A stretch of 43,765 nt of DNA. It comes from Fibrobacter sp. GTDB lineage: Bacteria; Fibrobacterota; Fibrobacteria; Fibrobacterales; Fibrobacteraceae. The notes below the pieces were generated by a model. That model ran no database searches and had not been told where the DNA came from. It worked only from the letters and a program-made list of their open reading frames with translations. A program made the position numbers and the translations under genes. The stretch lies in assembly GCA_024398965.1 (NCBI GenBank), contig JAKSIF010000021.1:1-43765 (forward strand), given 5' to 3'. Positions 1,138 to 31,149 of this stretch are shown in pieces. The first letter of the stretch is position 1, and every line of letters begins with the position of its first letter.

Positions 1138-3213
1138 ATGGAAAAGATGAAGTTTGAAACTCCTGATATGACTCAGATGAACATTGAAAAGATTGCGGCT
1201 TTGTTCCCGAATTGCATTACCGAAAAGAAGGATGATAGCGGCAAGATTACGAAAGCTGTGAACTTTGACGCCTTGAAGCAGATTCTGGGTGATTCCATTG
1301 CCGATGGGGATGAATCCTACGAGTTCACCTGGGTGGGGAAGCGCGACGCCATGGTGGAGGCCGCCAAGCCCATACGCAAGACTTTGCGCCCCTGCGTCGA
1401 GGAGTCCGTCAACTTCGATACCACCGAGAACCTCTACATTGAAGGCGACAATCTCGAAGCTCTGAAACTGCTCCAGGAAGGTTATCTTGGCAAGGTCAAG
1501 ATGATTTACATCGACCCGCCCTACAATACCGGAAACGACTTCATCTACAAGGATGATTTCCGCATGGATTCCAAGAAGTACGACGAGGAAAGCGGAGCCG
1601 TTGACGACGAAGGAAATCGCATGGTGCAAAATTCCGACAGCAATGGCCGATTCCATTCTGACTGGTGTTCCATGATTTATAGCCGTCTTCTCCTTGCCAG
1701 GAATTTGCTGACCGATGATGGCGTGATTTTCATTAGTATTGATGATAATGAACAGGCTAATTTGAAGAAAATTTGTGATGAAGTTTTTGGTTCAGATTGC
1801 TTTGTTGGGGATGTTGCTTGGCAGAGAACATATTCCACAAGAAACGATTCAAAAGGTCTTGTTCGTGAAATTGAACATATTGTGTCGTATAGCCGACAGC
1901 GTGAATGGATGCCATATGCTTTACCAAGAACTGCAGAAATGAATGCAATGTACAAAAATCCTGATAATGATGTGAATCCATGGACTAGTGATAATCCATT
2001 TGCTCCTGGAGCAGCGACACATCAAGGTATGGTGTATGCTATTCAACATCCTTTTACTGGAGAAATGATATATCCAAGTGCTAATGCATGTTGGCGTTAT
2101 CAGCAAGATGAAATGCTGAAAATTATGCAAGGCTGGGGAAAGTACGTTTTAAAAAACTTGGATGACGAAGAACTAAGGGCTGCTGTATGTGGAATATCTG
2201 CGAATGACATCCGCAAAAATGTTATGGGAATTGTTTTAGAAGATTCTTTAGAAAATGCTAAAAAATTTGCTCAAAGTGTTTATGATCGAGGTCAATGGCC
2301 GAAATTTTACTTTACAAAAAATGGATTTGGTGGAATTCGTCGAAAAACATATTTAGATGCTGTTGGAGGAAAACTTCCTACAAATTTTTGGCCTTTTTCT
2401 GAAACGGGCCACACCGATGAAGCAAAAAAGGAAATTCTTTCTTTATTTGATGGCAAGGCTCCATTTGACACTCCCAAACCCACTCGTTTGCTAGACAGAA
2501 TGTTAACGATAGCCTCAGAAAAAGATTCTTTGATTCTAGACTTTTTCTCTGGTTCGGCAACAACAGCTCATGCTATTTTTAAGAAAAATTTAGAGGATGG
2601 CGGAAATCGCAGGTTTATCTTAGTGCAAGTTCCTGAAGAAACGAAATCTCCAGCATACAAGAACATCTGCGAAATCGGCAAGGAACGCATCCGGCGTGCC
2701 GGAGCAAAAATCCTTGCCGAAAAACAAGCCGAACAGCAAAAGTCCTCAGAAAAGAACGACCTCTTTGACGCTCAAAATGTTTCTGACAACAATGCCAAAA
2801 CTCTGGACATCGGCTTCCGTGTCCTAAAAATAGACGACTCCAACATGAAGGATGTCTATTATTCCGCAGGCGAAGTCTCCCAGCAGAACCTCCTCGATCA
2901 AATCAGCAACATCAAGGAAGATCGCACCGATATGGACCTTCTCTTCGGTTGCCTCGTCGATTGGGGCGTCTCCCTGTCGCTCCCCATCAAAACAGAAACC
3001 ATCGAAGGCGTCACCATCCACAATGTCAACGACGGCGACCTCATCGCAAGTTTCTCCGAAAACATCCCAGAAACCGTCATCCGCCAAATCGCCGCCAAGA
3101 AACCCCTCCGCGTCGTCTTCCGCGACTCCTCCTTCCGCGACGCCCCCTCCAAAATCAACGTCACCGAAATCTTCAAAACCCTCAGCCCCAACACAACCGT
3201 CAAGGTGATTTAG
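1138..3213 (+). CDS. mod: Type III restriction-modification methyltransferase subunit (Mod)
   Basis: This adenine-specific DNA methyltransferase modifies the type III recognition site and gives the restriction complex its specificity. The N-terminal part (to about residue 110) has the conserved type III Mod lead-in, including IEKIAALFPNCITE. Catalytic motif IV, DPPYNTGN, is at about residue 126, and the AdoMet motif DFFSGSATTAHA at about residue 468; this order marks a beta-class enzyme. At 691 aa it is full length. The recognition region between (about 1690-2640) is visibly richer in A+T than both ends of the gene, a mosaic pattern expected of an exchanged target-recognition domain. The partner res gene lies 4.5 kb downstream, separated by a Pycsar-like operon and a toxin-antitoxin pair. 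The ATG at 1138 is favoured over 1147 because the longer N-terminus matches the family. Confidence 0.95.
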   Translation: MEKMKFETPDMTQMNIEKIAALFPNCITEKKDDSGKITKAVNFDALKQILGDSIADGDESYEFTWVGKRDAMVEAAKPIRKTLRPCVEESVNFDTTENLYIEGDNLEALKLLQEGYLGKVKMIYIDPPYNTGNDFIYKDDFRMDSKKYDEESGAVDDEGNRMVQNSDSNGRFHSDWCSMIYSRLLLARNLLTDDGVIFISIDDNEQANLKKICDEVFGSDCFVGDVAWQRTYSTRNDSKGLVREIEHIVSYSRQREWMPYALPRTAEMNAMYKNPDNDVNPWTSDNPFAPGAATHQGMVYAIQHPFTGEMIYPSANACWRYQQDEMLKIMQGWGKYVLKNLDDEELRAAVCGISANDIRKNVMGIVLEDSLENAKKFAQSVYDRGQWPKFYFTKNGFGGIRRKTYLDAVGGKLPTNFWPFSETGHTDEAKKEILSLFDGKAPFDTPKPTRLLDRMLTIASEKDSLILDFFSGSATTAHAIFKKNLEDGGNRRFILVQVPEETKSPAYKNICEIGKERIRRAGAKILAEKQAEQQKSSEKNDLFDAQNVSDNNAKTLDIGFRVLKIDDSNMKDVYYSAGEVSQQNLLDQISNIKEDRTDMDLLFGCLVDWGVSLSLPIKTETIEGVTIHNVNDGDLIASFSENIPETVIRQIAAKKPLRVVFRDSSFRDAPSKINVTEIFKTLSPNTTVKVI

Positions 3214-3217: not shown

Positions 3218-3772
3218 ATGAAAAACTGTGAATATGACATAGATTCTCAGTTAGAGCGAACTGTTGATTGGCTTAAATATGCTGAGGCAAAAAATGGCAT
3301 TTTGGTTACTCTTTTAAGTGCTTTGCTTGTTGCTTTTTTTCAACAAGATGTACTTCCTGTTTGGTCATTTTATGGAAAACTAGTCAGTATTTCCTTATTA
3401 TGCGGAATAATGCTGTTGCTTTATTCTTTTTTCCCGGTTTTGAATCTTTTTCCCAAAATTAAGTGGATTAAAAGGCTTAAACGAGCTTATTACAAAAAAA
3501 TGAGAAGAAATGGAAAGAAAAAAGAGCCTTTGAAAATACAACTAAAAAATCAAAATCTGCATTATTATGGGTGCATCGCACAAATGTCTACAGAACATTT
3601 TATTCACGCGGTGAGATTAAGTTATGGCGAGCGCGATAATAAAAAATACTTTATAGACGTTTGCCAACAAATAAAGATAAATAGCGATATTGCTCTGCGT
3701 AAATTTAAGTTGTTTCAAAAAGCTGGATATCTTTGTATTTTAACATTTGTTTTTCTCGTTTTGACAGCGTAA
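3218..3772 (+). CDS. PycTM-like (DUF5706-type) membrane effector
   Basis: A 184-aa protein with the pattern of Pycsar transmembrane effectors: an amphipathic lead-in with WLKYAEAKNGILVTLLSALL (residues about 19-38, comparable with the family's fAD.KAgillal.gall), a second hydrophobic helix at about 50-72, a basic linker rich in Lys/Arg, and a final helix (GYLCILTFVFLVLTA) at the C-terminus. The segment before it, with YFIDVCQQI and ALRKFKLFQKA, matches the family's C-terminal part. In the family the effector binds a cyclic pyrimidine mononucleotide made by the neighbouring cyclase and damages the membrane on phage infection. It starts 4 nt after the mod stop and ends 3 nt before a cyclase, so it is probably co-transcribed with both. 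Assigned by pattern only; a plain membrane protein of unknown role remains possible. Confidence 0.72.
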   Translation: MKNCEYDIDSQLERTVDWLKYAEAKNGILVTLLSALLVAFFQQDVLPVWSFYGKLVSISLLCGIMLLLYSFFPVLNLFPKIKWIKRLKRAYYKKMRRNGKKKEPLKIQLKNQNLHYYGCIAQMSTEHFIHAVRLSYGERDNKKYFIDVCQQIKINSDIALRKFKLFQKAGYLCILTFVFLVLTA

Positions 3773-3775: not shown

Positions 3776-4477
3776 ATGGAAGTAAAAAATAGAATTGAGT
3801 ATGATTTTGAAGCGAGTCTGCAAAGAATTGATGAAATTTTAGCGTCATCTGATCAAAATTATGTTGAATTAGATTATATCCCTGCTAGAAGTTTTTTTAC
3901 TTATGAAAACGGGGTAAATACAAAAGCTATTGCTCTGTTTATAGATATAATAGGTTCATCGAAACTAACGCAATCACATACACGTCCTGTAATCTCCAAA
4001 ATATATAGAACATTTATCTCTGAATGCACAGCTATCTTAAACTCGGAAAAAATCTGCGAAGAGATTAATATCCACGGAGATTGTGTATGGGGAGTATTTG
4101 ATGCTGATAAAGATGAAAATTATGGAATTGTGTTTCATGTTGCTGCAAGATTAAATTCGTTAATTGGATGTATTAACGAAAGTTTGGCTGAATTTGGCTA
4201 TAAGAACATCAGGGCTGGTATAGGTGTTGCGGACGGGAGAGTTTTAATAGTTAAGGCCGGTTACTCAGGAAGCTCTCTAAATGATTTAATCTGGATGGGA
4301 GATGCCATTAATCAAGCTAGTCATTTAGCAAATGCGGCTGGTAGAAATGGGGTCGATCCTATTTTGATGACAGAAGGTATTTTTTCTAAAGTTTCTAATA
4401 TAAGACAAAATTTATTGAGCCGCACAAATACACCTGGAATATATTGTGGTGATTTTATTGCCACGGAAATGGAGTGA
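3776..4477 (+). CDS. Class III nucleotide cyclase, PycC-like (first of two)
   Basis: The 233-aa protein is essentially one class III cyclase homology domain with no sensor or membrane segment. FIDIIGSSKL carries the first metal-binding Asp (D57) and NIHGDCVWGVFD the second (D102). The later stretch with IRAGIGVADG, KAGYSG and WMGDAINQASHLANAAGR gives the remaining fold elements. These features and the position beside a PycTM-like effector match Pycsar cyclases, which make cCMP or cUMP during phage infection. Base specificity cannot be read from the sequence by eye. It is the second gene of a packed operon (3 nt after the effector, 1 nt before the next cyclase) and is strikingly A+T-rich compared with the ends of mod. 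Cyclase fold sure; Pycsar role inferred from context. Confidence 0.8.
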   Translation: MEVKNRIEYDFEASLQRIDEILASSDQNYVELDYIPARSFFTYENGVNTKAIALFIDIIGSSKLTQSHTRPVISKIYRTFISECTAILNSEKICEEINIHGDCVWGVFDADKDENYGIVFHVAARLNSLIGCINESLAEFGYKNIRAGIGVADGRVLIVKAGYSGSSLNDLIWMGDAINQASHLANAAGRNGVDPILMTEGIFSKVSNIRQNLLSRTNTPGIYCGDFIATEME

Positions 4478-4478
4478 T

Positions 4479-5279
4479 ATGTCTTTTTCTGAATTACAAG
4501 TTGAAAAAGGTGTGATAGACATTATCGATGAAGAATTGAAAATTTCGAGACAAGCTATATCTTTCACACAACGGAATTCTATACCAGATACGACAAAAAT
4601 TCCTATTGAGAATCCGACAAACTGGTTGAAGATTCCTGATGTTGTGTGTGTCTTTATTGATATGATTGGGTCCACAAAATTAAGCGCTCTTGTTGATAAT
4701 ACAAAAATGGCTAAGGCTTATAGATTGTTTACTGGGACACTCATTAAAATATTTGATTACTTTGGTTCTCCCTATATAGATGTGAAGGGCGATGGCGTTT
4801 TTGCACTTTTTGATTCGGATAAAGTGTATACCGCTCTCGTTGCTGCAATTACAGCAAAAACGATTGTAGAAGAATCTTTGTCGGGACGTATAAAAGATAT
4901 TTCTGGAATTGAAATTGGAGCTCACATTGGTATTGATCAGGATACAATTTTAGTCCGCAAGCTGGGCTTAAAAAGATATGAAGGTAGAACTGATCGTCAA
5001 AATGAAGTTTGGGCAGGCAAAACCGTGAACATGGCTGCAAAACTAGCATCTTTATCGAAAGGTAAAGAATTGTGGGTGAGTTATCGTTTCAGGAAAAATT
5101 TAAAAGACGAAAAAGCAACAATGTCTTGTTCTTGTCATGAGAAGATTCAGTTGTGGGAGGAAAAAGACGTTTCTAATGATGATCGTTTTGATTTTGATTC
5201 TGCTTATATGACCAAAGCCATATGGTGCAGCAAACATGGTTCAGAATATGCGAAATATTTGAAGCAACTTGATGGTTAG
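4479..5279 (+). CDS. Class III nucleotide cyclase, PycC-like (second, divergent)
   Basis: A 266-aa cyclase domain protein. Metal-binding residues are D61 in VFIDMIGSTKL and D105 in DVKGDGVFALFD; GAHIGIDQDTILVRKLG and EVWAGKTVNMAAKLASL complete the core. A C-terminal extension has paired Cys residues (CSCHEK) and may be accessory. The ATG at 4479 is preferred because it lies 1 nt after the previous stop with GGAG just upstream; an upstream in-frame start at 4446 would overlap the previous gene and add unconserved residues. It is clearly not a recent copy of its neighbour: only the motifs agree. Two adjacent cyclases could make different signals, heterodimerise, or split catalysis and regulation. 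Both keep the two metal-binding Asp residues, so neither is obviously dead. Confidence 0.8.
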   Translation: MSFSELQVEKGVIDIIDEELKISRQAISFTQRNSIPDTTKIPIENPTNWLKIPDVVCVFIDMIGSTKLSALVDNTKMAKAYRLFTGTLIKIFDYFGSPYIDVKGDGVFALFDSDKVYTALVAAITAKTIVEESLSGRIKDISGIEIGAHIGIDQDTILVRKLGLKRYEGRTDRQNEVWAGKTVNMAAKLASLSKGKELWVSYRFRKNLKDEKATMSCSCHEKIQLWEEKDVSNDDRFDFDSAYMTKAIWCSKHGSEYAKYLKQLDG

Positions 5280-7733: not shown

Positions 7734-10700
7734 ATGAAAATCCAGTTTAAGCACCAGCAGTTTCAGGCAGATGCCGCCAAGGCAGTTTGTGATGTGTTCC
7801 TTGGTCAGCCTTACTTGGAGTCTAGCTATTTGTTGGATTCTGGAACGATGAAACTGTTCGGTGGGGATGTCTCCGCTCACAACAAGGTCATGGGCTTTTG
7901 TAACCAGCCTCTTGTTCCGCAGATGACCGATGAACTGGTGCTCAAGAATTTACAGGCGGTGCAGGCAGGGAATCTCCTTCAAACCGATGAAAAGCTGGAT
8001 GGCCGTTTCAATTTGACCATTGAGATGGAAACGGGTACCGGTAAGACCTACACTTACATCAAGACCATGTATGAACTGAACAAGGCTTATGGCTGGAGCA
8101 AGTTCATTGTGGTGGTGCCGAGTATTGCAATCCGTGAAGGCGTGTATAAGTCTTTCCAGATTGTTCAGGAACATTTTGCCGAAGAATACGGTAAGTCCAT
8201 TCGATTCTTTATCTACAATTCCCAAAATCTTACCGAGATTGATCATTTTGCAAGCGATAGCCATATCAATGTGATGATCATTAACGCTCAGGCTTTTAAT
8301 GCAACAGGGAAGGATGCCCGCCGCATCTACATGAAGCTTGATGAATTCCGTAGCCGTAGGCCCATTGATATTATTTCTAGCACGAATCCGATTCTCATCA
8401 TTGATGAACCTCAAAGTGTCGAAGGAAAAAAGACCAAGGATCGCCTGCTAGAATTCAAGCCTTTAATGACGCTTCGTTATTCAGCAACCCATCGCAAGGA
8501 CGCCATTTATAACATGGTGTATCGCCTTGATGCCATGGATGCCTATAACAAACGCCTGGTCAAGAAAATCAGCGTTAAAGGCATTACTGCCACAGGTTCT
8601 ACCGCTACGGAAGGCTATCTGTACCTAGAAAAAGTCCAGGTGTTCACCGACAAGAATCCTGTTGCAACATTGGAGTTTGATTACAAGGGCAAGAATGGCT
8701 TGCTGAAGAAAACAGCAAATGTAACCAAGAACTTTAATCTTTACGAGCAGTCTGGTGAACTGGAGGAATATAAGGACAACTATGTCGTTACTGAGGTCGA
8801 TGGCCGCGACAACTCCATCACATTTGCCAATGGGAAAAAACTTCTTGCCGGCGAATATGTGGGTGTAGTAAATGAAGACCAGCTTCGCAGAATCCAGATT
8901 CGCGAAACCATCATTTCTCACTTTGAACGCGAACGAGCTTTATTCAGTAAAGGCATTAAGGTCCTGTCGCTGTTCTTCATAGATGAAGTCAAGAAGTATC
9001 GTGATTATGATGCTGCTGACGAGCAGGGCGTTTACGCCAAAATGTTCGAAGAGGAATATGATTCTGTTCGCAAGTCTCTGCAGCAGGATTTGTTGGAAAG
9101 TCCTGATTACCTCGAATTTCTTGACAAGACTGTAGCTCGCAAGGCTCACGCTGGTTATTTCTCTATTGACAAGAGCAAGAAAGGCGCCGGTCGCTTTAAG
9201 GATTGTGAGCTCAAGAAAGGTTCCTCAGAATCTGACGATGTTGATGCCTACGACCTTATTATGAAAGATAAGGAGCGTCTTCTTTCTCGTGAAGAACCTG
9301 TGCGTTTTATCTTCAGCCATTCAGCACTTAAGGAAGGTTGGGATAATCAGAATGTTTTCCAGATTTGCACACTCAAGAGTAGTGGTTCTGAAGTTCGCAA
9401 GCGCCAGGAAGTTGGCCGCGGCCTTCGCCTTTGTGTAAATCAGAATGGCGAGCGTATGGATGCCGCAGTTCTCGGTGCAGATGTTCATTCCGTGAATGTG
9501 CTTACGGTAATTGCAAACGAAAGCTACGAAGATTTCGCCAAAGCCCTGCAGACTGAAATGGCCGAAAACATTGGTACTCGTCCTGTCAAGGTGACTATCG
9601 ACTTGTTCAAGGGCCGTAAGCTGGAAACAGAATCTGGCGTAAAGATTGCCGTTTCTGATGATTTGGCACAAAATATATACGATGCTCTTCTTGAATGTGG
9701 CTATGTGAAAAAGGGTATGCTTACTGAGGCATATCGTGTTGATAAAGCCGCTGGTACACTTCATTTAAGCGAAGAGGTTGCTCAATATACGGCTGGCATT
9801 TGTTCCTTGCTAGATACACTTTATGATCCGGATGCCGTCAAGCCTGATGATGCACGAAAGAATAACGTCGAACTACACTTGAATAAAAGTAAATTCGGCT
9901 CCAAGGAATTCAAGGATCTTTGGAATCGCATAAATGCAAAGTCTGCCTATGTGGTGAATTTCGACACAGATGAATTGATTCTCAAGTCAATTAATGCTTT
10001 GAATGAAAAGCTGCGTGTCACGAAGATTTTCTTCAAGATTGACCAGGGTTCGTTAAAGGAAATCAAGTCCAAGGAACAGTTGGAAAACGGTAATGCCTTT
10101 AAGCTGGAATCTACAGAAAATAAGGCTGCCGTCGTTACCGCAAATTCTAATGTTAAGTATGATTTGATTGGTAAAATTGTAGAAGGAACGCAACTGACCC
10201 GTAAGGTGGTCGTTGACATTCTTCGCGGCATTCACAAACCGATTTTTGATCAGTTCCAGGAAAACCCGGAAGAATTCATCATCAAGGCGAGCCGTCTAAT
10301 AAATGAGCAAAAGGCAACAGTTATTGTAGAACATATAACCTACAATAAGCTTGAATCCCGCTACGAAACCAACATCTTTACCGACAACACCATGAAGGGT
10401 AAGCTGGGTATGAATGCCTGCGAAACTCACCAGCATTTGTACGATCATCTGATTTACGATTCTACAAACGAACGAGATTTTGCACAGAAGCTCGAAGCAA
10501 GCAAGGATGTGTCTTTGTACATCAAGTTGCCGAAGGGATTCTTCATCAACACTCCTGTTGGAAACTACAATCCTGACTGGGCCATTGCCTTCCATGAAGG
10601 TTCTGTAAAGCACGTTTATTTCGTCGCCGAAACGAAGGGCTCCATGAGTACCTTGGAACTTCGCGAAATAGAATCCGCAAAAATCAAATGTGCTCGCAAG

Positions 10701-10781
10701 CACTTCGCCGCAATTTCAAGTGAATCTGTAACGTATGACGTTGTGGATTCCTATGAAAAATTGCTGGATTTGGTGAAATAG
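7734..10781 (+). CDS. res: Type III restriction endonuclease subunit (Res)
   Basis: A 1015-aa restriction and translocation subunit that works with Mod; type III complexes use ATP hydrolysis to communicate between two sites and cut DNA. A superfamily-2 helicase core occupies the N-terminal half: Walker A METGTGKTYTY (about residue 99), Walker B IIDEPQSVEG (about 221), LRYSATHRKD (motif III region), then FSHSALKEGWDNQNV and QEVGRGLRL for motifs V and VI. The C-terminal domain has a PD-(D/E)XK-type nuclease signature, NPDWAIAF followed by VYFVAETKGS (about residues 945-967). It appears intact and full length. It has its own upstream region shared with the divergent toxin-antitoxin pair rather than following mod directly, so expression may be uncoupled from mod. 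Confidence 0.95.
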   Translation: MKIQFKHQQFQADAAKAVCDVFLGQPYLESSYLLDSGTMKLFGGDVSAHNKVMGFCNQPLVPQMTDELVLKNLQAVQAGNLLQTDEKLDGRFNLTIEMETGTGKTYTYIKTMYELNKAYGWSKFIVVVPSIAIREGVYKSFQIVQEHFAEEYGKSIRFFIYNSQNLTEIDHFASDSHINVMIINAQAFNATGKDARRIYMKLDEFRSRRPIDIISSTNPILIIDEPQSVEGKKTKDRLLEFKPLMTLRYSATHRKDAIYNMVYRLDAMDAYNKRLVKKISVKGITATGSTATEGYLYLEKVQVFTDKNPVATLEFDYKGKNGLLKKTANVTKNFNLYEQSGELEEYKDNYVVTEVDGRDNSITFANGKKLLAGEYVGVVNEDQLRRIQIRETIISHFERERALFSKGIKVLSLFFIDEVKKYRDYDAADEQGVYAKMFEEEYDSVRKSLQQDLLESPDYLEFLDKTVARKAHAGYFSIDKSKKGAGRFKDCELKKGSSESDDVDAYDLIMKDKERLLSREEPVRFIFSHSALKEGWDNQNVFQICTLKSSGSEVRKRQEVGRGLRLCVNQNGERMDAAVLGADVHSVNVLTVIANESYEDFAKALQTEMAENIGTRPVKVTIDLFKGRKLETESGVKIAVSDDLAQNIYDALLECGYVKKGMLTEAYRVDKAAGTLHLSEEVAQYTAGICSLLDTLYDPDAVKPDDARKNNVELHLNKSKFGSKEFKDLWNRINAKSAYVVNFDTDELILKSINALNEKLRVTKIFFKIDQGSLKEIKSKEQLENGNAFKLESTENKAAVVTANSNVKYDLIGKIVEGTQLTRKVVVDILRGIHKPIFDQFQENPEEFIIKASRLINEQKATVIVEHITYNKLESRYETNIFTDNTMKGKLGMNACETHQHLYDHLIYDSTNERDFAQKLEASKDVSLYIKLPKGFFINTPVGNYNPDWAIAFHEGSVKHVYFVAETKGSMSTLELREIESAKIKCARKHFAAISSESVTYDVVDSYEKLLDLVK

Positions 10782-10918: not shown

Positions 10919-12973
10919 ATGGATAGTGTTTATCAGAAAGCTCACGCTGCTTTGGAAAGTTTTCTTGGTCCTGGGAAAAATTTTAGAGATGGCCAATATG
11001 AGGCCATTAAGGCTACTCTTACCAATAAAAGGACGCTCGTTGTGCAGCGTACTGGTTGGGGTAAGAGTATGGTGTACTTTATCTGCACCAAGATTTTGAG
11101 GGATGAACAAAAGGGGCTGACTCTTATTATTAGCCCTTTGCTGAGTTTGATGAAGAACCAGATTGAAGCAGCGGCTAGGGCAGGCTTGAAGTGTGAAACT
11201 TTGAACAGTTCTAAAACGATTGAAGAGAAAACTCAGATTTTAGAATTGATGGAAAAGGGTGAAATAGACCTTGTTTTGACAACGCCAGAAACTCTATTTA
11301 CTGAAAAAGTTCAAGATGCTTTAAAAAAGATCAAGATAGGTTTATTTGTCGTTGATGAAGCACACTGTATTTCTGATTGGGGACATGATTTTCGTTTGGA
11401 GTATTGCCGAATTAACAAGGTTATCAGCGGTATGCTGAAAAATATTCCTGTTCTTGCAACAACGGCAACTGCGAACGACCGGGTTGTAGAAGATCTTAAA
11501 CAACAACTGGGCGGAGATGTTTTTGTTTCTAGAGGCCCGTTGATGCGCAAGAATCTCTCGATTCAGGTTCTTAATTTGAGGTACAAGGCTATGCGATATG
11601 CATGGCTTATAGATAATATCAACAAAATTCCAGGATCGGGTATTATCTATTGCCTTACACAAAATGACTGTGAGCATCTTACAGAATTCCTGAATGAAAA
11701 TAATATAAACGCAAGGGCTTATCACAGCGGATTAGATGAAGTTGTAAATCAAGAGACTGAACAGTTGTTCATGAAAAATGAAATCAAGGTTATTGTTGCT
11801 ACGATAAAGCTGGGGATGGGGTACGACAAACCTGATATTTCATTTGTAATTCATTATCAAATGCCATCTAACGTGGTTGCCTATTATCAACAAATTGGTC
11901 GTGCAGGGCGAAATGTTGACCGTGCATATACTTTTTTGATGTATGGTGCAGAAGATCTTGATATTCAAAATTATTTCATAGAAACAGCATTTCCTTCAAA
12001 ATCTGAAGCTGATAGTGTGTATTCTCTTGTCGCAGAAAATGAAGGAATAAAGTTGTATGATATAATGTATCATCTAAATTATTCAATGGGGCGTGTTGAA
12101 AAAACATTAAAATTCCTTGAAAATGAGGAATTTGTATACAAAGAAAAGGGTAAATACTATGCTTCTGCTCATAACTTTGTGTATAACGAAGCTCATTATA
12201 GCGACGTAAAGAATGTTCGTTATAGAGAGCAATCACAGATGCTTGATTTTATCAAAACGAACGAATGCTATAGCAAATATATTGTCAATTGTTTAGACGA
12301 TATAACCACTGAAAATTGTGGGATTTGTAAAAATTGTATTGGACATGAGGAATTTTCTTCTGTTATTTCAAAAGAATCCTTGGGCAGAGCGGTAGCATTC
12401 TTAGAAAAAATTCTGTTGCCGATTGAACCTAGGGTGCAGTGGGCCAAAACGGATTTGTCTAGTCGCACAAAAATAGATATGCCAAATGAAGTGGGTGTTT
12501 GCCTATCGATTTATGGGGAACAGGGCTATGGAGTTATGGTAAAGAATGGAAAGTATGAAACAAAAAAGTTTTCCGAAGAACTTGTTGAAAAAAGCGCAAA
12601 AGTTTTGCAAAATCTTGTATCCGAAAATGGAATATCTCAGCTTGCCTACGTTCCCTCCCTGCGAAGCGATGTTGTGAAGGATTTTGCGTTACGATTAGCT
12701 TCTAAATTGGGGATTTCCTGCATAGATGTGATTCAAAAAAATGTTGCAAAAATGCAAAAAGAGATGGAGAACAGTTCTTTTCAATGTGGTAATGCTCGAA
12801 AATCATTCAGTTTACGAGAAGGAACATCTCTTTCAGGTTCTATATTGTTAGTTGATGATGTTGTAGATTCTAAATGGACTTTGACTGTATGTGGATACTT
12901 GTTAAGAACAGCTGGTGCTGAACATGTCTATCCATATGCGTTAGCTTGCAGTTCTAAAAAGAGGGCGGATTAA
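10919..12973 (+). CDS. RecQ-family helicase fused to a phosphoribosyltransferase domain
   Basis: A 684-aa protein. Residues 1-350 are a RecQ helicase core: Walker A RTGWGKS (about 44), DEAHCISDWGHDF (about 146), ATTATAND, GMGYDKPDI and QQIGRAGR (about 327). A RecQ-type zinc-binding segment follows (ENCGICKNCIG, about 467). The C-terminal 150 residues contain LAYVPSLRSDVV and ILLVDDVVDSKWTL (about 643), the PRPP-loop pattern of ComF-type phosphoribosyltransferases, with DS.WT in place of the usual TTG.T. Helicases of this architecture exist in other bacteria. A GGGG ribosome site precedes the ATG at 10919, and the next gene starts 1 nt after this stop, so the two proteins probably act together. 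A helicase, a ComFC-like domain and DprA are the parts natural-transformation systems use on incoming single strands; here a defence role is inferred. Confidence 0.85.
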   Translation: MDSVYQKAHAALESFLGPGKNFRDGQYEAIKATLTNKRTLVVQRTGWGKSMVYFICTKILRDEQKGLTLIISPLLSLMKNQIEAAARAGLKCETLNSSKTIEEKTQILELMEKGEIDLVLTTPETLFTEKVQDALKKIKIGLFVVDEAHCISDWGHDFRLEYCRINKVISGMLKNIPVLATTATANDRVVEDLKQQLGGDVFVSRGPLMRKNLSIQVLNLRYKAMRYAWLIDNINKIPGSGIIYCLTQNDCEHLTEFLNENNINARAYHSGLDEVVNQETEQLFMKNEIKVIVATIKLGMGYDKPDISFVIHYQMPSNVVAYYQQIGRAGRNVDRAYTFLMYGAEDLDIQNYFIETAFPSKSEADSVYSLVAENEGIKLYDIMYHLNYSMGRVEKTLKFLENEEFVYKEKGKYYASAHNFVYNEAHYSDVKNVRYREQSQMLDFIKTNECYSKYIVNCLDDITTENCGICKNCIGHEEFSSVISKESLGRAVAFLEKILLPIEPRVQWAKTDLSSRTKIDMPNEVGVCLSIYGEQGYGVMVKNGKYETKKFSEELVEKSAKVLQNLVSENGISQLAYVPSLRSDVVKDFALRLASKLGISCIDVIQKNVAKMQKEMENSSFQCGNARKSFSLREGTSLSGSILLVDDVVDSKWTLTVCGYLLRTAGAEHVYPYALACSSKKRAD

Positions 12974-12974
12974 A

Positions 12975-13922
12975 ATGAATGAAAATTCTTCTGTAATTGT
13001 ATCTTTGTGTAGCCATCTTTGCGCGGATTCCTGCAAACCGTTTACTCCCTATGAGTGGACGAAGTTTGCAAAAATGCTTATGGAAAAATCTCTACAGCCT
13101 AAGGATGTCATTAATTTTTCGACTGAAGATTTTAAACATAAACTGTTGTATACTGACGAAGAAATTCAACGGGTCCGTTCTTTATTTGATCGAAGTGGAA
13201 GCTTGATATTTGAATTAGAAAAATTTTCCTCTATGGGGATTAAGGTTGTAACGCGGGCTGATTCTGAATATCCCAAAGTATTGAAGAGTAAGTTAAAGGA
13301 AAACTGTCCGCCTTTGTTTTACTATGCTGGAGATTTGAACTTAACAAATCGAAAATATGCTGGTTTTGTAGGCTCAAGAACTATAGATGATAATGATACC
13401 GATTTTACAAAGTGCACTGTCTCAACGATTGTAAAAAATGGATTCGGCGTGGTTTCTGGCGGAGCAAAAGGAGTTGACTCAACAGCGTCTTTAGCGGCAC
13501 TTGCCGAGGGCTGCTTCTGCATAGAATATTTGGCGGATTCTTTAGCGCGGAAAATAAAAAAGCGTGATGTCGTTTCCCAAGTACAAAAGGGAAATTTGCT
13601 TCTCATTTCTATTGCAAAGCCGGATGCTGGTTTTAATGCTGGTTTTGCAATGCAACGTAATAAATTTATCTATGCCCAATCAAAGGGAACCATTGTTGTG
13701 AAATCTGATTATGACAAAGGCGGTACTTGGAGCGGGGCAACTGAAGCTTTGCGAAATGGATATTGCCCAGTTTTTTGTCGAAACAACCAGAAGAGTCTTG
13801 GCAATAAAAAACTGATTGAACTTGGGGCTATCGCAATTGATGAAAATTGGGATGGAAATTTGGATGAAAATGAGGTTCGAAAAGTTAGTCCTCAAGAAGA
13901 ACAACTATCCCTGTTTGGCTGA
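12975..13922 (+). CDS. DprA-like (SLOG Rossmann) DNA-binding protein
   Basis: A 315-aa protein with the DprA core: YPKVLKSKL and PPLFYYAGDL, then GFVGSRTID, VSGGAKGVDSTASLAALAEG, and GGTWSGATEALRNGYCPVF. In DprA this fold binds single-stranded DNA and loads RecA; related SLOG domains sense nucleotides. It lacks the downstream winged-helix domain of many competence DprA proteins, and the N-terminal 90 residues are a helical lead-in. It is translationally coupled to the RecQ-phosphoribosyltransferase gene (1-nt gap). That pairing and the surrounding defence genes argue against a housekeeping competence role, though a true dprA cannot be excluded. Confidence 0.8.
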   Translation: MNENSSVIVSLCSHLCADSCKPFTPYEWTKFAKMLMEKSLQPKDVINFSTEDFKHKLLYTDEEIQRVRSLFDRSGSLIFELEKFSSMGIKVVTRADSEYPKVLKSKLKENCPPLFYYAGDLNLTNRKYAGFVGSRTIDDNDTDFTKCTVSTIVKNGFGVVSGGAKGVDSTASLAALAEGCFCIEYLADSLARKIKKRDVVSQVQKGNLLLISIAKPDAGFNAGFAMQRNKFIYAQSKGTIVVKSDYDKGGTWSGATEALRNGYCPVFCRNNQKSLGNKKLIELGAIAIDENWDGNLDENEVRKVSPQEEQLSLFG

Positions 13923-14026: not shown

Positions 14027-17000
14027 GTGAGTGTTGTTTTCTTAGATATTGAAGTTTCTACATCCAGCGGGAAAATCGCCGATTTGGGCGCCGTTGATTC
14101 TCAAGACCAGACGATTCATACGCCTAGTCAGGGTGATTTCCTGAATTTCGTGAAGGATGCAGAATACGTCGGTGGTCATAATGTCTTGAATCACGACCTT
14201 CAGTATCTAAAACACCTGGATTTAGACAAAAAGAAGGTTATTGACACTCTTTATCTTTCGCCGCTGATGTTCCCCATGCGGCCCAGCCATAAGCTGCTGA
14301 AAGATGAAAAAATCCTTAGTGATACCTTGAATAATCCCTTGCTGGATGCACAGAAGTCCAGGGACTTGTTCCATGACGAGATTAATGCTTTCAATGCCTT
14401 GGATGATGATCTAAGGGATATCTATTTCAATCTTTTGAAGGGCTCAAGGGAATTCAAGGATTTTTTTGAATATGTGGGCCTAAAAGAAGAAAGCAAGGGC
14501 TTCTTTAACAATCTTCTTTCTGCCAGATCCAGCACTAGGAACCTTGTTAAGCAAATTCAGAGCCGTTTTGCAGGCTTGATTTGTGAAAACGCTTCTATAG
14601 AGTCCTTTGTTACAGAACACCCCATAGAGCTGGCCTATGCTTTGTCGGTAATAAACCTGCAGGATAAGCGTTCTATTACGCCAGCTTGGGTGCTGCGTAA
14701 CTATCCATACACAGAGAACATTCTTTTCTTATTGCGAAATAATCCGTGTCATGAGCCTACGTGCCCCTATTGTAGTGGAAAACTGGATGTCCGTAAGAAG
14801 CTGAAAGAAATCTTTGGGTACGATAATTTTAGAACTTACGATGGGGAACCTTTACAGGAACAGGCTGCGGCGGCTGCGGTCAACAATGATTCCTTGCTGG
14901 CTATTTTCCCCACGGGTGGCGGCAAGTCCATTACTTTCCAGCTGCCGGCTTTGATGGCGGGGGAGAACTATAAAGGCTTAACAGTCGTTATTTCACCCTT
15001 GCAGTCCTTGATGAAGGACCAGGTTGACAACCTTGCTTCCAAGGGGATTGCCGATGCCGTAACTATCAATGGTCTTTTGGATCCTATTGAACGTGCAGAG
15101 GCCATTAAACGTGTGGAATCGGGTATGGCATCTATGCTGTACATTTCGCCGGAATCCCTCCGTTCCCGTACCATCGAAAAACTTTTACTTTCTAGGCAGA
15201 TTGCCCGTTTTGTAATTGACGAAGCCCACTGTTTTTCTAGCTGGGGCCATGATTTCCGTGTAGATTATCTCTATATCGGCGATTTCATCAAGAAACTCCA
15301 GGAACAAAAATCCAGTCTAAGAAGAATTCCTGTTTCTTGCTTTACAGCAACTGCAAAGCAGAAAGTGGTTCAGGATATTTGCGATTACTTTAAAAAGAAG
15401 CTGGATCTTGATTTAAAGATTTTTGCCACAAAGGCAACCCGCGCAAATCTGACTTACCATGTAATCTATCAGGAAGACGAAGACCAGAAATACAAGACTT
15501 TAAGGTCTTTGATAGAAACAAAGAATTGCCCGACCATTGTCTATGTTTCAAGAACCAAGAATACTCTGGAACTGGCAGAAAAGCTAAGTATGGATGGTTT
15601 TGTTGCATTGCCTTTTAACGGAAAGATGGAAAGCCGTGAAAAGGTGGAAAACCAGGAAGCATTCATTAGTGGCAAGGTCCAGATTATCGTGGCCACATCC
15701 GCTTTTGGCATGGGTGTCGATAAATCCGATGTGCAACTTGTAGTGCATTTTGAAATTTCTGATTCTCTGGAAAACTACGTTCAGGAAGCCGGTCGTGCAG
15801 GGCGTGACCAGAGCTTGCAGGCAGAATGTTATGTTCTTTTTAATGAAAGTGACTTGGACAAGCATTTCTTGCTACTGAACCAGACGAAGCTTAGCATGAG
15901 CGAGATTCAGCAGGTTTGGAAGGCAATCAAGTCTCTTACAAAGAACCGAACTGTGCTTAAGCGCTCTCCTCTGGAGATTGCAAGAGAGGCTGGCTTCGAT
16001 GATCCTAATGGTGATGTAGAAACTCGCGTAAAAACCGCAATTCTCGCCTTGGAAGAGGCTGGCTACATTGAACGTAAGCAGAATTGCCCTCAGGTTTACG
16101 CCACTGGCATTCAAGTTTCAAATATGGATGAAGCTCGTAGTAAGATTACAGCTTCCAATATGTTTGATGAAAAACAGAAAGAGAATGCCATTAGAATTAT
16201 AAGTCTTCTGATTTCTCAGCGAAATACTTTTAAATCCAAAGGTGACGAGGCTGAATCCCGCATTGATTATATAGCCGATATCCTAGGTATGGAATGCAGT
16301 GCTGTTCAGGAAACAGTTCAGCTCCTGCGCGCAGAGAACGTGCTTGCAGATTCCAAGGATATGACCGCCTACATCAAGAAGGGTGATGGCGAAAACAAGT
16401 CCAAGTTGGTTGTAAAGCGTTTTGAAGCTCTTGAGAACTTTATTATTTCAAAACTAAAAACAGGGAAGACTGTTTTCAACCTCAAGGAATTGAACGAGGA
16501 AGCCGCTGCGGCTGGTATCAAAAAGGCCAACGTTAAGGATATAAAGACCATTCTTTATTTCTGGATGATCAATGGCCTTATCGAAAAGAACTACTGCTCT
16601 GATATTTGCACAAAGATTGAACCGAAGGTCTCCCTTGAAAATTTGGTAGAAGACTTTAATCATCGTGTTCAGTTGGCTCATTTTGTTATTGACCAGCTTT
16701 ATCAGGCTAATTACGATGCCAAGACAAATTCTCGTGAAGAAGCTCTGATCCAATTCTCTGAAAAAGAATTGCTGACAGCGTATGAAAATCAGATTTCGTT
16801 ATTTGACAAGACTCCGGTTTCATATAAGGATCTCGAAAAATCCCTCCTGTATCTTTCCAAGATTAATTCTTTGCAGTTGGAAGATGGCTTCCTTGTGCTG
16901 TATAACGCACTTGAAATTCATAGAATTGAAAAGAGCAATTTGATCAAGTATAAAGTTGACGACTATGAAAAGTTGAACAACTTCTACCAAATGAAAATGC

Positions 17001-18877
17001 AGCAAATCCATATTGTTGGTGAATATGCCAACATGATGGTACGCGATAGCAAACAGGCTCAGGTTTTTGTAAGTGATTATTTCGCTCTCGATTACAAGAT
17101 GTTCTTGAACAAGTATTTCAAGGGCAATCGCATGGATGAAATCAATCACAATATCACTCCAGAAAAGTACCACGAAATTGTAGATTCCCTTTCTGAACGT
17201 CAGAAGCAGATTATTGAAGATAAGAATAGCCAATACATTATGGTGGCAGCAGGCCCGGGAAGTGGAAAGACTAGAGTCCTCGTGCATAAGCTGGCCTCCT
17301 TGATGCTGTTGGAAGACGTGAAGCACGAACAGTTGCTGATGCTCACATTCTCTCGTAGTGCAGCCATTGACTTTAAGGAAAAACTCCATAAGCTGATCGG
17401 TAGTGCAGCCTCCTTCTTGACTGCAAAAACATTCCATTCCTACGCATTTGATTTGCTAGGAACTATGGGTGACCTAGATAAAGCAGGTTCCGCTGTTGAA
17501 ATGGCTGTGGAAAAAATCAAGGAAGGGGAAATTGAGCATAGCAAGATCACCAAGAAGGTCTTGGTAATTGATGAAGCCCAAGATATGGATGAACATCAGT
17601 TCGCCCTGGTTCAGGCCCTCATTGAAGAAAATGAGGATATGCGTGTTATTGCCGTAGGCGATGATGACCAGAATATTTTCGAAGGGGTCCATCAGAAGGC
17701 CGGTTCGAAGTCTGTAGATTTAAATCGCTTTATGGATCTTTATAAGGCGAAGAAGTACGAACTGGTGGAAAATTACCGCAGCATTAAAAAGGTTGTAGAC
17801 TTTAGTAACGCCTTCGTTCAGGATATTCCCAATCGCTTAAAGGTGAATCCCATTAGAGCTGTAAATGATGGGGAAGGTGCCGTCAGGGTTCGAAAGTTTA
17901 ATTCGCCTCACATGGAATACGCCATTGTTGAACACTTGAAAAAGTACTCCAACTATGGAACAGTTTGTGTTTTAACGCAGACCAATGATGATGCTTTGAA
18001 AATGATGGCCCTTTTGAATCACGAAAAAATCAGGGCGAAGTTGATTCAGGACAGTGACGGGTTCTCGCTCCATGATCTTGTTGAATTCAGAAGCTTTATG
18101 AAATGGCTCTCCAGTAATGAAGATCCTGTCATTAGTACAGAAGAATGGGATTCTGCAATGGGTAAGCTACAACAGTACTATCAAAAGAGCGCGTTGTTGC
18201 CTATTTGCATAAAGGCGCTTAAGGTTTATCAGAAGCATAACGATCGCCTTTATCGAAATGATTTGAAGCTTTTCTTGATGGAATCGAGGGTGTCAGACTT
18301 TGAACGCGGTGAAAAGAATGAAGTTGTAGTTTCTACGATTCATAAGGCAAAAGGTCGTGAATTTGACAGAGTCTACATGCTGATTAAGGATCAAAGGGCT
18401 AGCTCGGAACAAGGCCGCCGTGTATTGTATGTGGGTTTTACTCGTGCGAAGAAGCAACTGTATGTTTTCCACTGCTGCCCCTTCTTGGATAAGTATGCTC
18501 CCGTTATAGAGGAACATGCGAGGTATTCGGAACCTGCAGAAATCATTTGCCAGTTTGGCCATAAAGATATGTTCTTGAGCTATTCTTATGGAGAGACTGT
18601 TGACGAAGGTGGAGGACTGAAAAAACGAATCTTCAAATTACATAGCGGTGATATATTGAAGTATTCCCATGGTGGACTGTATGACTTCAGCGATTCCAAG
18701 AATCCGGTAGCCGTATTGTCTAAAAAGGCTAAGGAAAAGATTTCTCATCTTAAGGACTTGGGATATTCTGTGAAAAATGTACGAATCCGTTATGTAGTGG
18801 CCTGGCATGATAAGGAACGTGAAGAAGAAATTCCTATTATCTTGCCTGAAATTGAACTGGTGAAGAAGCATGGCTAA
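14027..18877 (+). CDS. Exonuclease-RecQ-UvrD triple fusion helicase
   Basis: A 1616-aa protein joining three machines. The N-terminus begins VFLDIE (D7, E9) with GGHNVLNHDLQYL further on, the pattern of a DEDD-type 3'-5' exonuclease. A zinc-binding segment (CHEPTCPYC, about 241) precedes a RecQ core: FPTGGGKS (about 294), DEAHCFSSWGHDF (about 398), FTATAK, GMGVDKSD and QEAGRAGRD. The C-terminal third is a UvrD/Rep-type SF1A helicase: AAGPGSGKT (about 1074), LTFSRSAAIDFKEKL, DEAQDMDE (about 1182), GDDDQNIF, STIHKAKGREF and YVGFTRAKKQ (about 1468). Both ATPase cores look intact. GTG at 14027 is the start that keeps the exonuclease motif. It lies 104 bp after the dprA-like gene. Long proteins of this kind occur in other bacteria; their function is not established, and DNA repair or phage defence are both possible. 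Confidence 0.88.
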   Translation: MSVVFLDIEVSTSSGKIADLGAVDSQDQTIHTPSQGDFLNFVKDAEYVGGHNVLNHDLQYLKHLDLDKKKVIDTLYLSPLMFPMRPSHKLLKDEKILSDTLNNPLLDAQKSRDLFHDEINAFNALDDDLRDIYFNLLKGSREFKDFFEYVGLKEESKGFFNNLLSARSSTRNLVKQIQSRFAGLICENASIESFVTEHPIELAYALSVINLQDKRSITPAWVLRNYPYTENILFLLRNNPCHEPTCPYCSGKLDVRKKLKEIFGYDNFRTYDGEPLQEQAAAAAVNNDSLLAIFPTGGGKSITFQLPALMAGENYKGLTVVISPLQSLMKDQVDNLASKGIADAVTINGLLDPIERAEAIKRVESGMASMLYISPESLRSRTIEKLLLSRQIARFVIDEAHCFSSWGHDFRVDYLYIGDFIKKLQEQKSSLRRIPVSCFTATAKQKVVQDICDYFKKKLDLDLKIFATKATRANLTYHVIYQEDEDQKYKTLRSLIETKNCPTIVYVSRTKNTLELAEKLSMDGFVALPFNGKMESREKVENQEAFISGKVQIIVATSAFGMGVDKSDVQLVVHFEISDSLENYVQEAGRAGRDQSLQAECYVLFNESDLDKHFLLLNQTKLSMSEIQQVWKAIKSLTKNRTVLKRSPLEIAREAGFDDPNGDVETRVKTAILALEEAGYIERKQNCPQVYATGIQVSNMDEARSKITASNMFDEKQKENAIRIISLLISQRNTFKSKGDEAESRIDYIADILGMECSAVQETVQLLRAENVLADSKDMTAYIKKGDGENKSKLVVKRFEALENFIISKLKTGKTVFNLKELNEEAAAAGIKKANVKDIKTILYFWMINGLIEKNYCSDICTKIEPKVSLENLVEDFNHRVQLAHFVIDQLYQANYDAKTNSREEALIQFSEKELLTAYENQISLFDKTPVSYKDLEKSLLYLSKINSLQLEDGFLVLYNALEIHRIEKSNLIKYKVDDYEKLNNFYQMKMQQIHIVGEYANMMVRDSKQAQVFVSDYFALDYKMFLNKYFKGNRMDEINHNITPEKYHEIVDSLSERQKQIIEDKNSQYIMVAAGPGSGKTRVLVHKLASLMLLEDVKHEQLLMLTFSRSAAIDFKEKLHKLIGSAASFLTAKTFHSYAFDLLGTMGDLDKAGSAVEMAVEKIKEGEIEHSKITKKVLVIDEAQDMDEHQFALVQALIEENEDMRVIAVGDDDQNIFEGVHQKAGSKSVDLNRFMDLYKAKKYELVENYRSIKKVVDFSNAFVQDIPNRLKVNPIRAVNDGEGAVRVRKFNSPHMEYAIVEHLKKYSNYGTVCVLTQTNDDALKMMALLNHEKIRAKLIQDSDGFSLHDLVEFRSFMKWLSSNEDPVISTEEWDSAMGKLQQYYQKSALLPICIKALKVYQKHNDRLYRNDLKLFLMESRVSDFERGEKNEVVVSTIHKAKGREFDRVYMLIKDQRASSEQGRRVLYVGFTRAKKQLYVFHCCPFLDKYAPVIEEHARYSEPAEIICQFGHKDMFLSYSYGETVDEGGGLKKRIFKLHSGDILKYSHGGLYDFSDSKNPVAVLSKKAKEKISHLKDLGYSVKNVRIRYVVAWHDKEREEEIPIILPEIELVKKHG

Positions 18878-24758: not shown

Positions 24759-26759
24759 TTACTGAACCTTGAACTTGGTGACTTTCACCAGGCCGTTATT
24801 CATGTATTCTCTTCGCAGGTAGACGCCTGCTTGCTCCGGCTTGCCCGACAGCAGAACGCCAGTCATGCTAAAGTACTGGACTCGCACCGGAACTGCAGCA
24901 AAATGAACATTGATCGGAATACCGCCAATCGCTTTGGGAATTGTGTCAAGTTGTGCCAAACAGTTACCCGGATCTTCAGGAGTATTTAAGCAAACAAGAG
25001 TATCTTGTTCAGGGAACTTTTGTACGCACTTGCCTGATTCATCCAGAACTTCGTCATCCTTGCAGACCACCGGTTCCACGTAGGGGTGTTCCGGATCGTT
25101 CACCACCACCTTGAATTTTTCGTAGGTCTTGCAGCCGGATTCGTTGGTGTATTCCACGGTGTAAATACCGCTGTTCTGCCATTGCAAATTCTTCAGGGTC
25201 ACTTCGCGGGTGGTAGCGCCAAAGTCCGCCGGGCCGCTCCATTTCCAGATTTTTCCGTCCCAGGGGTGGGGGCCAAACAGCAGGTCGCTGCCGGGTTCCA
25301 CCAGCAGATCCGTAGATTCGCTCCAGCCGCCTTCGCCCGCCTTAACGTAGGGAACAATCTTTGTGCCAGAGCAAGGGCCTACAACAGGCTCGCCGGAAGC
25401 CAGTACCTTCAACGTGTCGGGAATGGGAATCACCTTGGGCTCGAAATCCGCAGTGGGGAAGGCCTTCATGAGGCGAGCAGTTTCTTCGGCGGTAATGGGC
25501 AGCACGGTGCCGTGGCGAGGAGTAAACGCCCCCGCCATCTTGGTATCCTGCACAAAGGTAAAGTTGGTCAGGTCCGGGCTGCTGGTAAACTGGTAATGGC
25601 CATTCATGTAGCAGTCGTACATCAGAATCCAGGAATCCTGATTGATAAGCTTGAACACGCCTGCGCCTTCCACCGCTTCCTTGGTCTGCTGCAGGGTTCC
25701 GCTGGGCTTGCTCCACTGGGAACCTTCCTTGCCGGCGGGAGCCGTCAACTTTTTGGCGGTAGTCTTGCAGATGCCGCCTTCGCCTTCGTTCTTGAAGAAG
25801 GCGTGGTAAAGGCTGTCGTTTTCGTTATAGACGATGTCCATGTCGATGGTGGCAGAACCGCGGTCAAAGAAGTAGGTGGGCTTGCCAATCACATCGGTAA
25901 AGTCGTCGTTGGCGTACAGGTAGTACACCTTGTCGTAGGGAATGGTACCGTCGTTGGTCAGCAGCGAGAAATAGATCATCAGACGGCCCAAGGAGCCGTC
26001 GGCGTTTTCGTAATCCTTGTCCCAGATGGTTTCGGGAGCCCACACGCGGGTCACGTTGGCAAAGTTCGTTCCCTTGTACTTATCCGGGAAATGAACCGTG
26101 CTATGGGACCAGTTCACCAGATCCTTGGAGCGCATCAGCACCATGCCGCGGTTACTTGCCCAGCCCTCGGCGCTCTTCATGTCTGTATGGACCATGTAGA
26201 AATATCCGTCGGGCGCACGCAAAATGTGGGGGTCGCGAAGCCCCTTCTTAAGGCTCACGGAATCCGCAGCCAGCACGCGGTTACCGCCGTTCATGGCCGT
26301 AAAGTTGTAGCCGTCGTTACTGATGGCGTAGTAAATGTTCTCGTTGTTGTTTGCCGGGAAATAGATGAAAAGATAGTTGGAATAGGGCTCGTAACCATGA
26401 ATGGAAACGTCGAACTTTTTCGTTTCAATCTGGGTGCCGTCGGTTACGTTGGCGGACAGCTGGACAGTCTTACTTTTGTCGATGAGGCGAGCAGCGATGG
26501 TTCCATCGTTCTTTAGGAAGGTGGTATCGCTGGAGGTCCAGTAAATGCGTACGTTTTCGCAACCAGAAATGCCTGCACCTGTGGTGGGCAAGGTCAAATC
26601 CTTATACAGGTTGTTCAAGTGTGCGTTTAGCGTCAACTTTGCGGCACAATCCGAAAGCCCGGCGGCAAAGGAAGCTCCTGCGCAAATTCCTACAGCCCCA
26701 ATAACTGTGGAAGCCTTCAAAATACCCAATTTATTGAAAAATCCTATTCCCTTTTTCAT
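24759..26759 (-). CDS. Secreted GH43-family glycoside hydrolase with Ig-like modules
   Basis: A 666-aa exported enzyme, probably an arabinofuranosidase, xylosidase or arabinanase acting on plant hemicellulose. A signal peptide (ILKASTVIGAVGICAGASFA) follows the ATG at 26759. Next is a small Ig-like module with IYWTSSDTTFLKNDGTIAA, then a five-bladed GH43 catalytic domain (GLRDPHILRAPDGYFYMVHT, RVWAPETIWDK, STVHFPDKY). Then comes an Ig-type module (VEPGSDLLFGP, WKWSGPADFGATTREVTL, NSGIYTVEYTNESGCKTY) common in gut fibre degraders. The end (VQYFSMTGVLLSGKPEQAGV) resembles C-terminal regions of secreted Fibrobacter proteins and may be a sorting signal. Exact substrate is uncertain. An ATG ten codons upstream (26789) is less likely because it precedes the signal peptide. 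Confidence 0.85.
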   Translation of the reverse strand: MKKGIGFFNKLGILKASTVIGAVGICAGASFAAGLSDCAAKLTLNAHLNNLYKDLTLPTTGAGISGCENVRIYWTSSDTTFLKNDGTIAARLIDKSKTVQLSANVTDGTQIETKKFDVSIHGYEPYSNYLFIYFPANNNENIYYAISNDGYNFTAMNGGNRVLAADSVSLKKGLRDPHILRAPDGYFYMVHTDMKSAEGWASNRGMVLMRSKDLVNWSHSTVHFPDKYKGTNFANVTRVWAPETIWDKDYENADGSLGRLMIYFSLLTNDGTIPYDKVYYLYANDDFTDVIGKPTYFFDRGSATIDMDIVYNENDSLYHAFFKNEGEGGICKTTAKKLTAPAGKEGSQWSKPSGTLQQTKEAVEGAGVFKLINQDSWILMYDCYMNGHYQFTSSPDLTNFTFVQDTKMAGAFTPRHGTVLPITAEETARLMKAFPTADFEPKVIPIPDTLKVLASGEPVVGPCSGTKIVPYVKAGEGGWSESTDLLVEPGSDLLFGPHPWDGKIWKWSGPADFGATTREVTLKNLQWQNSGIYTVEYTNESGCKTYEKFKVVVNDPEHPYVEPVVCKDDEVLDESGKCVQKFPEQDTLVCLNTPEDPGNCLAQLDTIPKAIGGIPINVHFAAVPVRVQYFSMTGVLLSGKPEQAGVYLRREYMNNGLVKVTKFKVQ

Positions 26760-26856
26760 ATCCAATCCCTTTGGTATTGAATATACCATTTTCTTTTAGG
26801 CAGTAGGGGAGAAAGGATTTGCTAATAAAGGACAATTTGTCCATAAAGAGTAATAA

Positions 26857-26895
26857 AAAAGCCCCGGGGCATTAAACCTCGGGGAATTTTTTCTT
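26857..26895. terminator. Bidirectional terminator between GH43 and dnaJ
   Basis: AAAAAAGCCCCG and CGGGGAATTTTTT pair imperfectly around a 12-nt centre, with A and T runs on either side, so it can stop transcription both ways. It lies downstream of dnaJ on the minus strand. Confidence 0.65.
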
Positions 26896-26903
26896 ACAGC
26901 TTG

Positions 26904-26990
26904 GATTGCCACGCCCTCGCGGGCTCGCAATGACATGCTGGACTGGATCCTTCGACTTCGTTGCTTCGCAACTACGCTCAGGATGACACC
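26904..26990. repeat. Composite of two interspersed repeat units
   Basis: The first unit (GGATTGCCACGCCCTCGCGG, then GCTCGCAATGACA) and the second (GGATCCTTCGACTTCG ... CGCTCAGGATGACA) are the two common intergenic repeat types found in many bacteria. A degenerate, inverted second unit recurs at 30592-30619. Confidence 0.6.
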
Positions 26991-26998
26991 TAAAGGTG

Positions 26999-28144: not shown

Positions 28145-28248
28145 GTTTGCCCTCCCGGGCAATTACTAATTATGAATTACGAATTAAAATTTTTTATTCG
28201 CAAGACATTCAAAATCGATTTTGCGACGTATTCAAATATGCAAAAACA

Positions 28249-28265
28249 AGCAAGGCAAGTGCCGC
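28249..28265 (-). promoter_or_regulatory. Sigma-54-type (-24/-12) promoter for dnaJ
   Basis: On the minus strand CGGCAC-N5-TTGC matches the RpoN consensus TGGCAC-N5-TTGC at all but the first position. GG and GC are spaced exactly 12 bp apart (28263 and 28251). Predicted transcript start is near 28239, about 95 nt before the ATG. Confidence 0.6.
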
Positions 28266-28314
28266 GACAGAAAATTCATTTTCTGGCATGGCCGAGCCGA
28301 AGCCTGTTTTATGC

Positions 28315-28345
28315 AAAAAGGATTGCCCGAAAAACGGGCGAATCC
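28315..28345 (-). terminator. Terminator of dnaK
   Basis: On the minus strand GGATTCGCCCG, a T5 loop, and CGGGCAATCC form a stem with one bulge followed by TTTTT, 77 bp after the dnaK stop. It separates dnaK and dnaJ transcripts. Confidence 0.75.
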
Positions 28346-28421
28346 TAAATGCTTTTGGTAGCGGGGGAGGTTTGCACCAGCGTTCGCTAGCGGAACCACC
28401 GGCCGCCAACCGCGTTAATCA

Positions 28422-30323: not shown

Positions 30324-30398
30324 TTTTGAGTCTCCTATTTTTTAATTCTTGCCGCCCGCGAATCAATCTGAACGGGGCGATTTTTACGCCCATACATA

Positions 30399-30415
30399 AG
30401 CAAAACCCGTGCCAA
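30399..30415 (-). promoter_or_regulatory. Sigma-54-type (-24/-12) promoter for dnaK
   Basis: Minus strand TTGGCACG-GGTT-TTGCT fits the full RpoN consensus, with GG (30413) and GC (30401) exactly 12 bp apart. Predicted start is near 30389, about 65 nt before the ATG. No CIRCE element is seen here. Confidence 0.75.
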
Positions 30416-30444
30416 ATGCTAATAACTGGCAAAAAACGGCCATT

Positions 30445-30463
30445 TTGTTTCGTTCTGAAACAA
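30445..30463. promoter_or_regulatory. Operator-like palindrome upstream of dnaK
   Basis: TTGTTTC-GTTCT-GAAACAA, a perfect 7-bp inverted repeat, begins about 30 bp upstream of the -24 box. The core GTTTC-N5-GAAA recurs at almost the same distance upstream of grpE, so it may bind a shared activator. Confidence 0.5.
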
Positions 30464-30525
30464 GAAAAAGCCCTAAATCGGGGGAAAAAAGGCGCGTTTC
30501 ATATTAAAACACCCTGTAAAAGGGG

Positions 30526-30544: not shown

Positions 30545-30567
30545 CCTTCAGCCTTGCCCCTCTTGCG

Positions 30568-31130: not shown

Positions 31131-31149
31131 AACAACCTTTTTTATTTTC

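Follow-up and report, generated by a model that had tools for sequence, protein, structure and literature searches.

PsyrTA was reportedly described by Sberro et al. in 2013. The pair is equivalent to RqlHI. It was recognised as a toxin-antitoxin system in 2013-2015, is contained in PADLOC and is not new. In E. coli F11 the RqlH protein was genotoxic in the absence of RqlI. The toxicity required the phosphoribosyltransferase (PRTase) domain and was largely abolished in the variants D663A and DIVD663EVME; RqlI neutralised RqlH, and the two proteins interacted physically (PMC4670107). The Walker A lysine, the DEAH box and the aspartate of the PRPP motif were important for the activity of the E. 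coli and mycobacterial RqlH proteins, of which the latter is a working RecQ-type helicase (PMC4670107). Many Gram-positive bacteria possess rqlH without rqlI (PMC4670107), and neither toxicity nor pairing is therefore universal. PsyrTA has been listed as a toxin-antitoxin system that works through abortive infection (PMC10855318). In one study, phage protection by PsyrTA was undetectable in the native host strain, and expression caused a growth defect (PMC12409345). The published support for a role of PsyrTA in phage defence is mixed.

The DNA analysed here (the window, 43,765 nucleotides) is contig C21 of a 3.59-Mb Fibrobacter genome. In a preliminary description of this DNA, a RecQ-PRTase fusion gene had been placed 1 nt upstream of a DprA-like SLOG gene, and the coordinates and domains of the open reading frames agreed with this arrangement. 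The features referred to below are as follows.

10919..12973, plus strand: psyrT / rqlH (predicted toxin), 684 aa, RecQ-like SF2 helicase with C-terminal PRTase
12854..12883, plus strand: predicted PRPP-binding loop DDVVDSKWTL, residues 646-655, in the PRTase domain of PsyrT
12975..13922, plus strand: psyrA / rqlI (predicted antitoxin), 315 aa, DprA-like SLOG/Rossmann protein, short form
14027-18877, plus strand: RecQ-UvrD protein, 1616 aa, with RecQ and UvrD helicase domains

Both genes of the pair lie on the plus strand with a gap of 1 nt between them, and a G-rich stretch resembling a ribosome-binding site precedes the ATG of psyrA. With the PADLOC models PDLC03928 (PsyrT) and PDLC03927 (PsyrA), the first ORF gave a match of 811.8 bits (E 1.2e-244) over residues 5-681 of 684, and the second a match of 313.9 bits (E 4.1e-94). 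In pairwise comparisons PsyrT was 41% identical to the RqlH-type protein of E. coli strain 1283, and PsyrA was 36% identical to its partner protein. In strain 1283 the annotations read RecQ family helicase and DprA, and the pair is of the rqlHI type. As in PsyrTA and RqlHI, the Fibrobacter locus consists of a RecQ-like helicase fused to a C-terminal PRTase domain and a DprA-like gene immediately 3' on the same strand, and the Walker A lysine (K49), the DEAH box (D146) and the aspartate of the PRPP motif (D650) are conserved. The C-terminal HTH region, a variable and non-defining feature of RqlI, was absent from the Fibrobacter PsyrA. Because of the full-length PADLOC matches, the identity to the E. 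coli pair, the gene order and the conserved helicase and PRPP motifs, the Fibrobacter pair can be assigned with near certainty, on sequence grounds, to the PsyrTA (RqlHI) toxin-antitoxin family. The locus is therefore not a new system, as it is already known as PsyrTA/RqlHI and is listed in PADLOC.

The helicase motifs of PsyrT were intact, with motif I (GWGKS) at residues 46-50, DEAH at 146-149 and QIGRAGR at 325-331, and they were conserved in the relatives (40-82 sequences), including K49 and D146. A cysteine cluster was located around residues 450-473, and the PRTase domain extended from about residue 495 to 684. The AlphaFold2 model of PsyrT had a mean pLDDT of 90.1. When the whole model was compared with the PDB using Foldseek, RecQ-type chains and cores were the best matches and the only type among the matches listed, so this comparison was uninformative on the PRTase domain. 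The Pfam domain PF00156 was only weakly recognised in the Fibrobacter protein (E 0.0024, below the cut-off), while across the family the PRTase domain was clear in 36 of 41 members, with a best value of 6.5e-11. A profile of 41 C-terminal domains of the family matched chains of PRPP synthetases (3e-5) and of HGXPRT (3e-4), and the alignments to PRPP synthetase spanned the DDhhD motif.

The PRPP loop had been described as altered. The sequence DDVVDSKWT was confirmed; its presentation as a peculiarity of the Fibrobacter protein was not, since DSxWT occurs in 77 of 82 PsyrT sequences and is thus the family's own motif. D646, D647, D650, S651 and W653 were invariant in all 41 aligned PRTase domains. 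The loop is altered only relative to ComF, for which the ComF-like protein of the same genome (DDVYTTGAT) is an example, and it corresponds to DDhhDT, the motif with which HGXPRT and PRPP synthetase bind PRPP. HGXPRT and Gpt also have an aspartate where PsyrT has D650, and in these enzymes it is considered to be the catalytic base. In E. coli F11 RqlH, the counterpart of D650 is the last aspartate of the DIVD663 motif. A degenerate, inactive loop was considered and found unsupported, given the conservation across the family and the alignment with working PRTases and PRPP synthetases. The PRTase domain of PsyrT looks active from its sequence, and the odd-looking loop is better read as a family hallmark. 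Its conservation and its resemblance to the loop of purine-base PRTases suggest genuine catalysis. HPRT has a glycine at the loop position where PsyrT has a lysine (lysine, arginine or glycine in relatives), followed in PsyrT by a tryptophan, so the PRPP chemistry of PsyrT remains a prediction. In two other Fibrobacter genomes (L083 and L084) a divergent PsyrT/PsyrA pair of about 32% identity was observed with the loop DSGAT instead of DSxWT.

The Rossmann domain of DprA (PF02481) was detected in PsyrA with 118.7 bits. The NCBI dprA equivalog model, which has a cut-off of 191 bits, gave only 91.7 bits, and a better dprA was present on contig C2 of the genome, so that PsyrA did not classify as a canonical competence DprA. 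The AlphaFold2 model (mean pLDDT 92.3) was nearest to ShosA (8zva) and then to DprA in a search of PDB structures, and among the PADLOC models the score for PsyrA was far higher than the 83.7 bits obtained for ShosA. PsyrA ends after the Rossmann core, at 315 aa compared with the 398 positions of the PADLOC model, and about 12 of 30 aligned relatives were likewise short and lacked the C-terminal HTH region. Since an HTH-free E. coli RqlI comprising residues 1-320 still neutralised RqlH (PMC4670107), the short PsyrA should, by analogy, function as an antitoxin.

Of 80 loci spread over many phyla, 72 carried a PsyrA homologue immediately 3' of PsyrT and on the same strand; at least one of the eight unpaired loci was a contig end. 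Pairs resembling rqlHI are common in E. coli; the K-12 strain MG1655 lacks rqlHI. Within the genus Fibrobacter the pair was found in only 3 of 25 genomes, and two of these three carried the divergent version. The closest named relative was Fibrobacter succinogenes RUG14562 (L003) with 88% PsyrT identity. DNA similarity between the window and this genome was 85% over positions 10981-13866 and was found nowhere else. Because the similarity is confined to the pair, psyrT and psyrA are, as judged from this comparison, a two-gene unit that travels together without its neighbours.

In the window the pair comes after the restriction gene of a type III system, and Pycsar-like genes lie further upstream. 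In E. coli strain 1283 it lies within a type I restriction-modification (R-M) operon, flanked by S and R. The neighbours at other PsyrTA loci included Hma, SoFic, JetD, ZorD and R-M families (125 proteins; indicative, without a background control). This defence neighbourhood, together with the separate competence genes of the genome, favours the view of the preliminary description that the pair is a two-gene system of a defence island; recognition of incoming single strands or of a nucleotide signal, which it also proposed, would be hypothetical.

The Pycsar-like module of the window consists of a 2TM effector (3218-3772) and two PycC-type cyclases (3776-4477 and 4446-5279). The module is enclosed, together with an unassigned gene for a 400-aa protein and an HTH gene, by mod (1138-3213) and res (7734-10781) of the type III R-M system. 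The combination of one effector with two tandem cyclases seems unusual. Beyond the island, positions 24759-42917 contain genes that seem ordinary for Fibrobacter, namely those for Hsp70, GH43/CBM6 glycoside hydrolases, Fib_succ_major and a MORN-repeat protein.

Three other explanations of the locus were weighed. If the pair served ordinary natural competence, the helicase-PRTase would replace ComFA and ComFC, and the DprA-like protein would load incoming single-stranded DNA. The underlying parallel with the ComFA helicase, ComFC and DprA, drawn in the preliminary description, is real in terms of domain types; it had already been pointed out by Russell and Mulvey in the E. coli RqlHI paper (PMC4670107) and by others (PMC5512222). 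However, separate competence-type genes are present in the genome: a canonical dprA (C2), a comF-like gene (C8) and a comEC-like gene (C61). Canonical dprA was present in all 25 genomes of its search set (16 from the genus and 9 more distant), in contrast to the patchy pair, PsyrA scores far below the dprA equivalog cut-off, and rqlHI-like pairs are common in E. coli, in which natural transformation was undetectable to the authors (PMC4670107). A competence role is therefore very improbable, because of the separate competence genes and the patchiness of the pair in the genus, and it was rejected. The preliminary description had tied ordinary competence to a genome with no other dprA and to a pair found outside defence islands; this genome has its dprA on C2, and the pair lies in an island. 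The 1616-aa RecQ-UvrD protein could be a third component of a larger system, as its gene is on the same strand and only 104 bp 3' of the pair. None of 80 other loci, examined with flanks of at most 10 kb (less where a contig ended), had a homologue next to the pair, near-full-length homologues occur in three Fibrobacter genomes without PsyrT, and the DNA similarity to F. succinogenes RUG14562 stops at the pair. A three-gene system can hardly be upheld against these findings and was rejected; on this comparative evidence, the 1616-aa gene is a separate module. The protein itself is unevenly distributed in Fibrobacter: 3 of 24 genus relatives have it, at 34-38% identity. Its N-terminus resembles, by eye only, a DEDD exonuclease. 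In a Zoogloea genome (L057, 13476-18404) a 1642-aa ORF was observed directly 3' of PsyrTA, which was not homologous to the 1616-aa protein in BLAST.

A module for genome maintenance or DNA repair, with the helicase and PRTase acting on host DNA and toxicity arising as a by-product of unbalanced expression, is unlikely but deserves more weight than the other two. It would agree with the helicase activity of mycobacterial RqlH and the frequent occurrence of RqlH without RqlI (PMC4670107), and with the one strain that PsyrTA did not protect from phages (PMC12409345). The patchy distribution, the transfer as two genes and the R-M and other defence neighbours speak against it, as does the deletion of rqlHI, which caused no detectable loss of fitness (PMC4670107).

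By analogy with E. coli RqlHI, we infer that the Fibrobacter toxin-antitoxin pair acts in the same way with regard to toxicity, neutralisation and interaction; the same applies to a trigger by phage and to the substrate on which PsyrT would act chemically. The PRTase domain would be the toxic part of PsyrT, and unrestrained PsyrT would lead to DNA stress and growth arrest. PsyrA would bind PsyrT and restrain its toxic activity. What would disturb this restraint is most likely infection or abnormal DNA, such as single-stranded DNA or intermediates of replication that the helicase and the DprA fold engage, a step for which we see an even chance. The freed PRTase would then act on DNA or nucleotides, and the infection would be aborted. 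A more specific version is speculative and rather improbable: PsyrT could be an active, specialised PRTase with the HGXPRT-type aspartate, whose helicase reaches single-stranded DNA and which adds phosphoribosyl to a base in DNA or to the nucleotide pool during infection, with the short PsyrA as a natural HTH-free subtype.

The Fibrobacter pair in itself is a routine annotation, which widens the range of PsyrTA to Fibrobacter, where it would move as a two-gene unit. Among known systems, the competence trio ComFA, ComFC and DprA has the same broad domain types, but combines the ComFA helicase with a TTGxT loop, whereas the Fibrobacter pair has RecQ and a DSxWT loop and exists beside the canonical competence genes of its genome. 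ShosTA and the DprA-PRTase system of P2-like phages likewise consist of a PRTase-type protein and a DprA-like partner, and ShosA, the DprA-like antitoxin of ShosTA, is the best structural match of PsyrA. Their PRTase is not fused to RecQ (PMC9122126), unlike PsyrT, and membership in ShosTA was rejected because PsyrT carries a complete RecQ helicase and the second protein scores as PsyrA rather than ShosA. RqlH-RqlI of ExPEC E. coli F11 (Russell and Mulvey 2015) is likewise a RecQ-PRTase toxin and a DprA-like antitoxin in one operon. The helicase lysine and the D(I/V)VD PRPP motif are common to RqlH and PsyrT, while RqlI has an additional C-terminal HTH region, dispensable for neutralisation (PMC4670107), which PsyrA lacks. 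The same region is missing relative to PsyrTA as modelled in PADLOC; both proteins nevertheless matched this system over nearly their full length, and gene order, strand and spacing were identical.
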